Shown: piece after piece, positions 7,286 through 7,839 of the stretch | Layout: the number at the start of each line of letters is the position of its first letter | Numbering within the stretch: position 1 is the stretch's first letter | NCBI GenBank assembly: GCA_026984795.1 | Contig: JALSRK010000052.1 | Location: 186,001-250,000 of the forward strand | DNA length: 64,000 nucleotides | DNA from: Solibacteraceae bacterium | Lineage (GTDB): Bacteria > Acidobacteriota > Terriglobia > Bryobacterales > Bryobacteraceae | Reading direction: 5' to 3' | Made by a program: the position numbers and the translations under genes | Notes under the pieces: model-generated | What the model was told of the DNA's origin: nothing | Database searches by the model: none | The model's input: the letters and a program-made list of their open reading frames with translations, nothing else

Positions 7286-7313
7286 CCCGTGCTAGCTTCC
7301 TAGGTAACACGGG
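7286..7313 (+). other. Inverted repeat between M24 peptidase and selenoprotein gene
   Basis: Arms CCCGTG (7286-7291) and CACGGG (7308-7313) enclose an inner CTAG...CTAG pair, and the Shine-Dalgarno-like GGGAGGGG follows at once. It lies 13 bases after the M24 stop and 10 before the peroxiredoxin ATG. It could be a weak terminator, an operator or a 5' leader hairpin; there is no U-tract. Only the symmetry is seen directly. Confidence 0.3.
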
Positions 7314-7323
7314 AGGGGATCCA

Positions 7324-7839
7324 ATGAAAGCACTTAGACTGTTCCTCGGCGCGGCGCTGGCGGCGGCCTTGCTGCCGGCGGCCACGCACCTCAAAGTGGG
7401 CGACAAAGCGCCGGACTTCACGCTGCCGGCCACCACCGGAGGCAAGATCTCGCTGGCCGACTACATCGGCAAGAAGATCGTCGTGGTGGGCTTCTTCCCG
7501 GCGGCCTTCACCGGCGGTTGAACGAAGGAAGCCAAAGCGTACCAGGATGGTATCGCACAGTTCCAGGAAGCCGGGGCGCAAGTATTGCTGATCAGCACCG
7601 ACAACCTGCCGAGCCTGCGGGCGTTTGCGGGCCAGCTCGGGGTGAGCTACCCGCTGCTGAGCGACTTCGCCGACCGCAAGGTAGCCAAGGCCTACGGCGT
7701 GTTGAACGAGGAAAGGGGCATCGCCAACCGCACCACCTTCGTGATCGGGCTGGACGGCCGCATCCAGGAGATCATCGAAGGCCGGGAGGCCCTAGATCCC
7801 ACCGGGGCGTTGCAAGCTTGCCGCCGGATCAGCAAGTAG
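7324..7839 (+). CDS. Predicted selenocysteine-containing peroxiredoxin, exported (in-frame TGA at 7519-7521)
   Basis: AhpC/TSA-Bcp type thiol peroxidase reducing H2O2 or alkyl hydroperoxides. ATG 7324 follows a good GGAGGGG site. Residues 1-20 form a signal peptide (hydrophobic core [13 protein letters not shown]), so the enzyme should act in the periplasm. [12 protein letters not shown] and [13 protein letters not shown] are classic peroxiredoxin blocks; at residue 66, exactly where the peroxidatic Cys is expected (GGxTKE), the codon is TGA. The same frame then continues without a break for 105 more codons with typical family features ([42 protein letters not shown]) to TAG at 7837-7839. A SECIS-like hairpin sits 15 bases after the TGA. 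I read it as a selenoprotein of 171 residues; Cys166 is the only other thiol and a possible resolving residue. The alternative is a recent nonsense mutation or sequencing error. Standard callers would truncate it at 65 residues or start it late. Confidence 0.85.
7537..7556 (+). promoter_or_regulatory. Bacterial SECIS-like hairpin downstream of in-frame TGA
   Basis: Immediately 3' of the TGA, GCG-UACC (7537-7543) pairs with GGUA (7549-7552) and CGC (7554-7556), leaving a single bulged U at 7553 and a 5-base loop AGGAU (7544-7548). The loop starts 23 bases after the UGA, and a G occupies its second position. Known bacterial SECIS elements have a short upper stem, a small apical loop with a conserved G among its first two bases, and a UGA-to-loop distance of about 16-37 bases, so the fit is good. 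It lies entirely within codons, as bacterial SECIS elements do. Thermodynamic support was not computed. Confidence 0.7.

Follow-up and report, generated by a model that had tools for sequence, protein, structure and literature searches.

Acidobacteriota is a large and poorly cultured phylum. In bacteria, selenocysteine (Sec) is inserted when SelB, bound to a SECIS element, brings Sec-tRNA to a UGA codon. The TxxU peroxiredoxins are listed among the selenoprotein families (PMC9312934), are also known from a second report that calls their PxxxTxxU motif highly conserved (PMC13188914), and contributed 253 sequences to a marine survey (PMC2398784). For the Acidobacteria, one count gave four selenoproteins of three families (PMC1794560), and three known selenoprotein genes were given for one acidobacterium (PMC12013277). 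The gene described here lies in a 64,000-nt stretch of DNA from a Solibacteraceae bacterium (contig JALSRK010000052.1), referred to below as the window. It is of a known kind, the TxxU selenoperoxiredoxins; what is new is the AhpE-like character of its family, the signal-like N-termini and a second cysteine about 100 residues after the Sec.

A peroxiredoxin reading frame with one internal UGA

The gene occupies positions 7324..7839 of the plus strand, from an ATG at 7324 to a TAG at 7837-7839, and encodes 171 amino acids. A Shine-Dalgarno-like sequence, GGGAGGGG (7311..7318, + strand), can be read directly 5 nt upstream of the ATG. As the initial annotation had proposed, the single internal stop is a TGA (7519..7521, + strand) at codon 66, which alignment with homologues places at the peroxidatic position, and 105 sense codons follow it in the same frame (7324-7839, +). 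The PF00578 (AhpC-TSA) match runs across the TGA (residues 25-149; 130.2 bits vs a cut-off of 26, E 5.3e-38). The PxxxTxxU motif is present as PAAFTGGU at residues 59-66, and the protein contains one Sec (residue 66) and one Cys (residue 166). Among the 136 family proteins defined below, the residue corresponding to Thr63 of the motif (7510..7512, +) is Thr in 131 and Ser in five. Arg136 (7729..7731, +), which we take to be catalytic as in peroxiredoxins in general, is invariant (136/136). The Pro of the motif, Pro59 in the window protein (7498..7500, +), is kept in 103/136 rows and is replaced by Val in 22.

A plain list of open reading frames splits the gene into 7324-7521 (65 aa) and 7585-7839 (84 aa). 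Such a split would be expected of a pseudogene, or of a sequencing error that had turned TGC or TGT into TGA, the product then being an ordinary Cys enzyme or nothing; the Cys codon present here in 23/136 family proteins speaks for the same reading. Against it, the TGA is flanked by similar constraint: dN/dS between the window gene and six relatives was low both before it (0.06-0.30) and after it (0.11-0.28), with synonymous sites approaching saturation.

The catalytic codon among homologues

A search of 151 genomes returned some match at 1e-10 or better in 149. The match list over these genomes covers the stronger matches, and figures taken from it hold among the matches listed. From 150 loci, 154 aligned segments were obtained, with TGA at residue 66 in 120, TGC or TGT in 32, CGC in one and TTC in one. 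The CGC and TTC segments are weak matches (E 8.8e-16 and 9.9e-9). The CGC (Arg) codon occurs in a partial peroxiredoxin match, the second one within its locus (L180, genome G004), possibly an inactive paralogue.

The family was defined as matches of E 1e-24 or better, with identical proteins counted once and the PrxQ-type L222 dropped, which gave 136 proteins. Segments were left out if their E exceeded 1e-24 or they had a different codon (nine listed). A handful of matches listed at about 1e-24 to 1e-25 also lie outside the family counts, and G132, with a TGA match at 1.3e-24, was classed as having none in the genome tally. Start codons were picked by rule. Because each protein was by design cut off at the next stop, this set is uninformative on further stops.

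Cys homologues had been predicted at residue 66, and they exist: 23 of the distinct family proteins have TGC or TGT there and 113 have TGA. Disrupted downstream frames in relatives, which the initial annotation would have counted against a selenoprotein, were looked for and not found. The TGA at the site is the sole stop inside the TGA-bearing matches listed, apart from two that carry one further TAG (G101 and the second copy of G135). The best named relatives of the window protein, at 71-72% identity, come from MAGs titled Bryobacterales or Acidobacteria, and relatives of the enzyme recur across the phylum. In a phylum sample, 19/99 genomes, the source genome included, matched at 1e-25 or better, and 16 of these 19 have a listed match containing TGA.

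The pseudogene or error was rejected on the 112 other distinct TGA proteins and the similar constraint on the two sides of the codon, and we give it hardly any credence. Those 112 proteins also answer, indirectly, the initial annotation's condition that resequencing might show TGC or TGT. The gene is instead, almost certainly, a functional selenoprotein gene that encodes a selenocysteine peroxiredoxin.

Selenocysteine machinery and its co-occurrence with the gene

The genes selA, selB, selC and selD, named in the initial annotation as the machinery to look for, are all present in the source genome. SelA (511.5 bits), SelB (373 bits) and SelD (372.2 bits; L129, outside the window) each scored over the curated cut-off. 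SelD is probably a selenoprotein itself, because its gene has its own in-frame TGA. The tRNA-Sec scored 79.1 bits, with a TCA anticodon assigned by ARAGORN. The cut-off of the tRNA-Sec model is weak if taken alone, since it was also exceeded by two tRNA-Ser of the source genome (49.2 and 47.4 bits) and in 5/14 control genomes; the high score and the ARAGORN assignment are therefore what decide.

The source genome also holds a second Sec peroxiredoxin outside the window (L019, 1501-1935, +), with an FTFVU motif and a PrxU model score of 283.7, over the cut-off of 270. A SelL-related redox protein, likewise outside the window (L023, 1501-1824, -), has a TGA in a DWUPYC motif and scored 52.1 vs an NCBIfam cut-off of 120.

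These data also bear on whether the UGA could be read as Trp or Cys, through codon reassignment or an opal suppressor tRNA. A precedent exists in the tRNA-Cys genes with UCA anticodons of some bacteria (PMC7609411). However, TGA terminates 6/9 of the window frames checked. Among the best eight loci of the tRNA-Sec model, the sole TCA anticodon is that of tRNA-Sec, while tRNA-Trp has CCA and tRNA-Cys has GCA. No Trp was found at the catalytic site in any of the 154 aligned segments. Recoding was rejected on these three grounds, and we consider it extremely improbable beside selenocysteine insertion.

The gene and the machinery tend to occur together. Of the 138 genomes with a SelA or SelB hit, a TGA copy (E 1e-24 or better) is present in 101, Cys copies alone in 11 and no copy in 26; for the 13 genomes that yielded no hit to either, the corresponding counts are one, five and seven. 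The difference in TGA copies (101/138 vs 1/13) gave a Fisher p of 4.8e-6 with relatedness ignored, in a set in which several genomes are incomplete and related genomes are non-independent. The one exception is G040 (85% complete), which yielded a TGA copy but no selA or selB. Some absences of selA or selB may be false, since scoring covered no more than eight candidates per genome for selB and no more than ten for selA. The gene is not universal, because ten genomes with complete machinery have Cys copies only and 21 have no copy.

A SECIS-like hairpin that accompanies the UGA

A bacterial SECIS-like hairpin had been proposed downstream of the TGA, and the proposal holds up well: the hairpin fits the published model, is kept in TGA rows and is largely gone in Cys rows. 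The apical hairpin spans 7537..7556 (+) and reads GCGUACC-AGGAU-GGUAUCGC, with a bulged U (7553) on its 3' side and, at 7540-7552, an inner 5-bp stem with a G[G/U]N loop. The best fold also pairs A7544 with U7548, which leaves a GGA loop. The published bSECIS model calls for a loop of 3-9 nt, a stem of 4-16 bp, a G in the first two loop positions, a spacing of 16-37 nt and an energy of -7.5 or lower (PMC13188914). In the window the spacing from UGA to loop is 22 nt, and the energy limit is reached only with flanks (-8.7 kcal/mol, vs -7.2 for the bare 20 nt). Folding of the single 71-nt region of the window did not set it apart from its shuffles (z -0.23; 84 of 200 fold as well). That the hairpin is more than chance is therefore argued from comparison across relatives and not from single-sequence energy.

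The comparison used 104 distinct TGA rows, each 44% or more identical to the window protein, and the 23 Cys rows. Numbered from the U of the UGA as 0, the stem pairs U21-A33, A22-U32, C23-G31 and C24-G30 can form in 92.5% of cases in Sec rows and 43.5% in Cys rows; when one side of the stem was slid by 1-3 nt, pairing was 20-67%. A fifth inner pair, A25-U29, which closes the G[G/U]N-type loop, is present in 95/104 Sec rows. All five inner pairs occur together in 82/104 Sec rows vs 1/23 Cys rows. The three outer pairs are weaker (69% paired in Sec rows, 61% in Cys rows).

Codon usage after the UGA follows the hairpin. In Sec rows the Ala codon at +9 is GCT in 73/73 cases (13% elsewhere in the same genes), the Gly codon at +10 is GGT in 66/72 (19% elsewhere) and the Gln codon at +8 is CAG in 98/98 (71% elsewhere). 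Judged from these alignments, codon choice here is forced, far beyond what the protein requires. Mean folding energy in Sec rows was -9.17 vs -5.10 for synonymous shuffles (z -21.8); in Cys rows it was -5.04 vs -4.34 (z -1.7). The inner hairpin appeared in the best fold of 84/104 Sec rows, compared with a mean of 10 and a maximum of 17 over 40 shuffles, and in 2/23 Cys rows.

Covariation also links the third base of codon +7 to the second base of codon +10. The 104 Sec rows comprise 70 C-G, 27 U-A and seven mixed combinations (p 1e-17, relatedness ignored), whereas the Cys rows show no covariation (p 0.66). Protein function hardly explains this pattern, because the change is mostly a synonymous one, TAC or TAT (Tyr), set against Gly or Asp. 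On independent, well-supported pairs of the tree the covariation scored 2.8 for and 0 against (n=4), too few for significance.

Conservation of the hairpin with TGA and not with Cys is a further point against a pseudogene or sequencing error. We restrict the SECIS claim to the 104 nearer rows, since the eight more distant TGA rows (below 44% identity) mostly lack a hairpin of the window type, with all five pairs in 1/8. One Cys form, L142 (genome G027), keeps a SECIS-like hairpin core, TACCAGGCTGGTA, downstream of its TGC codon. This would be expected after a recent change from Sec to Cys, a direction that we infer.

Fold and subfamily

The AlphaFold2 model of the window protein has a pLDDT of 92.4. 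Its best structure match by VIA is M. tuberculosis AhpE (Z 26.1, rmsd 1.5 over 152 residues, 38% identity); AhpE entries rank at Z 26.1-25.3, followed by Bcp1 (24.9), BcpB (24.7) and Bcp4 (24.5). Foldseek, ordered by E-value, placed Sulfolobus Bcp4 first and AhpE second, and by sequence the best solved match was AhpE (1.7e-24). The AhpE signature is described as PxAF(T/S)xxC, with an Ala-Phe dyad and Val or Ile before the peroxidatic residue (PMC5302317). The dyad is present in the family (A61 in 99% and F62 in 94% of the 136 rows). The Val or Ile is absent: the window protein has Gly65, and Gly occupies this position in 96% of the 136 rows. Assignment to AhpE was rejected for this reason. Assignments to PrxU and to PrxQ were rejected on scores, the window protein reaching 71.1 bits with the PrxU model NF040737 (cut-off 270) and 83.1 bits, its best NCBIfam score, with the PrxQ/BCP model PRK09437 (cut-off 140). 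None of the eight members tested, the window protein and seven others, several of them given as the matched stretch only, was accepted by an NCBIfam model. In kind, then, the window protein is a TxxU selenoperoxiredoxin; its fold and motif are AhpE-like, and it falls outside the named subfamilies.

Predicted export

The first 20 or so residues (7324..7383, +) form a predicted signal peptide by a hydropathy rule, with a mean of 2.33 and two basic residues ahead of the hydrophobic stretch; there is no twin Arg, and the cleavage site is a guess. The same rule finds signal-like N-termini in 116/136 family proteins (97/113 Sec and 19/23 Cys). An RRx[FLIVM] motif occurs in 28/136, to which the window protein does not belong, and suggests Tat export for those proteins. 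The window protein is probably exported.

Alternatively, the protein might be cytoplasmic or membrane-tethered, with the N-terminus serving as an anchor and not as a cleaved signal. This would agree with an export prediction made by rule only, and with the 20/136 rows that do not pass the rule, which include a clade of five (f5) lacking the N-terminal stretch. The 116 rows that pass, in Sec and Cys forms alike, and the 28 with the twin-Arg motif argue the other way, and we regard this alternative as unlikely compared with export. The initial annotation had called an exported selenoprotein unusual, which was overstated, as exported selenoproteins are known: E. coli FDH-N and FDH-O face the periplasm, and a [NiFeSe] hydrogenase is periplasmic (PMC10779653).

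A second conserved cysteine and a proposed mechanism

The initial annotation did not mention Cys166 (7819..7821, +), a candidate resolving cysteine in an alignment column that is Cys in 122/136 rows. In 123/136 family proteins (100/113 Sec and 23/23 Cys) the tail holds a Cys, 96-105 residues beyond the catalytic residue. The 13 without it are six of family f9, which have a Cys at U+4, five of f5 and two single cases, one of which is a tandem copy with an extra TAG. The f5 clade, with its five members, has no Cys and no signal-like N-terminus. In the six f9 proteins, which form a subfamily within f9 (L214, L217, L218, L220, L223 and L226), it is as if the resolving residue had moved to U+4. Since the tail Cys is kept in 123/136 and six of the others have Cys at U+4, this pattern points to Cys166 as a candidate resolving residue. 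Prx5 uses a similar resolution by a Cys at about +100.

The same observations bear on a simpler enzyme, a real selenoprotein with one catalytic Sec, in which an outside thiol reduces the selenenic acid directly, as in 1-Cys AhpE, and Cys166 serves some other purpose. Two observations fit such an enzyme: the top VIA matches are AhpE entries whose titles call them 1-Cys, and 7/113 Sec rows lack a Cys both in the tail and at U+4. Retention of the tail Cys in 123/136, with Cys at U+4 in 6/13 of the others, fits it poorly. We consider the one-Sec enzyme possible though doubtful, and favor resolution by Cys166.

In the mechanism proposed here, SelB on the hairpin at 7537-7556 would deliver Sec-tRNA to the UGA at 7519-7521. 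The product would be an AhpE-like peroxiredoxin with Sec66 as the putative peroxidatic residue beside Pro59, Thr63 and Arg136, as their position and conservation indicate, and the predicted signal peptide, without twin Arg, would take it out of the cytoplasm. There Sec66 would reduce hydroperoxides and become a selenenic acid (Se-OH). Attack by Cys166 would turn this into a selenenylsulfide, which would then be reduced by a thioredoxin-like carrier drawing its electrons from a DsbD-type membrane protein. A DsbD_TM protein of the source genome (104.3 bits) could be the electron supply. Neighboring genes at 132 loci (frames of at least 70 aa, 1-3 kb around) gave no hint of function or reductant, and no widespread conserved neighbor was found among them. 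The commonest neighbor family occurs at 11/132 loci, ten of one genus and one of another, and a reading of the window's downstream neighbor recurs at 8/132. The chances of the whole chain, export and resolution by Cys166 included, seem to us evenly balanced.

Evolution and significance

A quick tree required 13 changes between Sec and Cys, four of them forced by well-supported branches, compared with an average of 21.6 for shuffled labels. On this evidence from sequences, Sec and Cys forms have been exchanged repeatedly within the family, which therefore offers a natural test of selenium versus sulfur and of SECIS gain and loss. Four f6 genomes have neighboring pairs of Sec-peroxiredoxin genes (L156, L158, L166 and L204), and in G069 a Sec and a Cys gene adjoin (L143).

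The family could represent an unrecognized, exported, Acidobacteriota-wide class of peroxiredoxin, with a Sec66-Cys166 selenenylsulfide, recycling by DsbD, an AhpE-like fold and repeated Sec/Cys exchange; we would put this at an even chance. If true, it would be a cell-envelope peroxidase that works with selenium in a 2-Cys-like manner and has its resolving residue about 100 residues downstream, and, if the gene is typical, many Acidobacteriota would use selenium against peroxide at the cell envelope. The literature searched, mainly the main texts of open papers, held no description of an exported acidobacterial two-chalcogen variant, and such a variant may already be in print. Mis-annotation of the family is likely, since the UGA splits the gene and none of the eight members tested passes an NCBIfam model.

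Comparison with known systems

FDH-N is exported by Tat. FDH-N and [NiFeSe] hydrogenase are large metalloenzymes, whereas the window protein is a small enzyme whose predicted signal lacks twin Arg. The arrangement is otherwise alike: those enzymes receive their Sec in the cytoplasm and act outside it (PMC10779653), as the window protein would. Unlike PrxQ/BCP, the window protein has no Cys within 11 residues after the Sec, and it is probably exported. With AhpE (Rv2238c) it shares the Ala-Phe dyad; it differs from that Cys enzyme in having Sec, a Gly before the Sec and probable export. The solved AhpE enzyme is titled a 1-Cys peroxiredoxin, whereas in the window protein the Sec is followed some 100 residues later by a tail Cys. 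The closest likeness in kind is to the TxxU selenoperoxiredoxins (PrxU, NF040737), which likewise have Sec at the peroxidatic position in the PxxxTxxU motif of an AhpC/TSA protein. Unlike PrxU, the window protein combines this motif with an N-terminus that resembles a signal peptide and with a tail Cys that is conserved.
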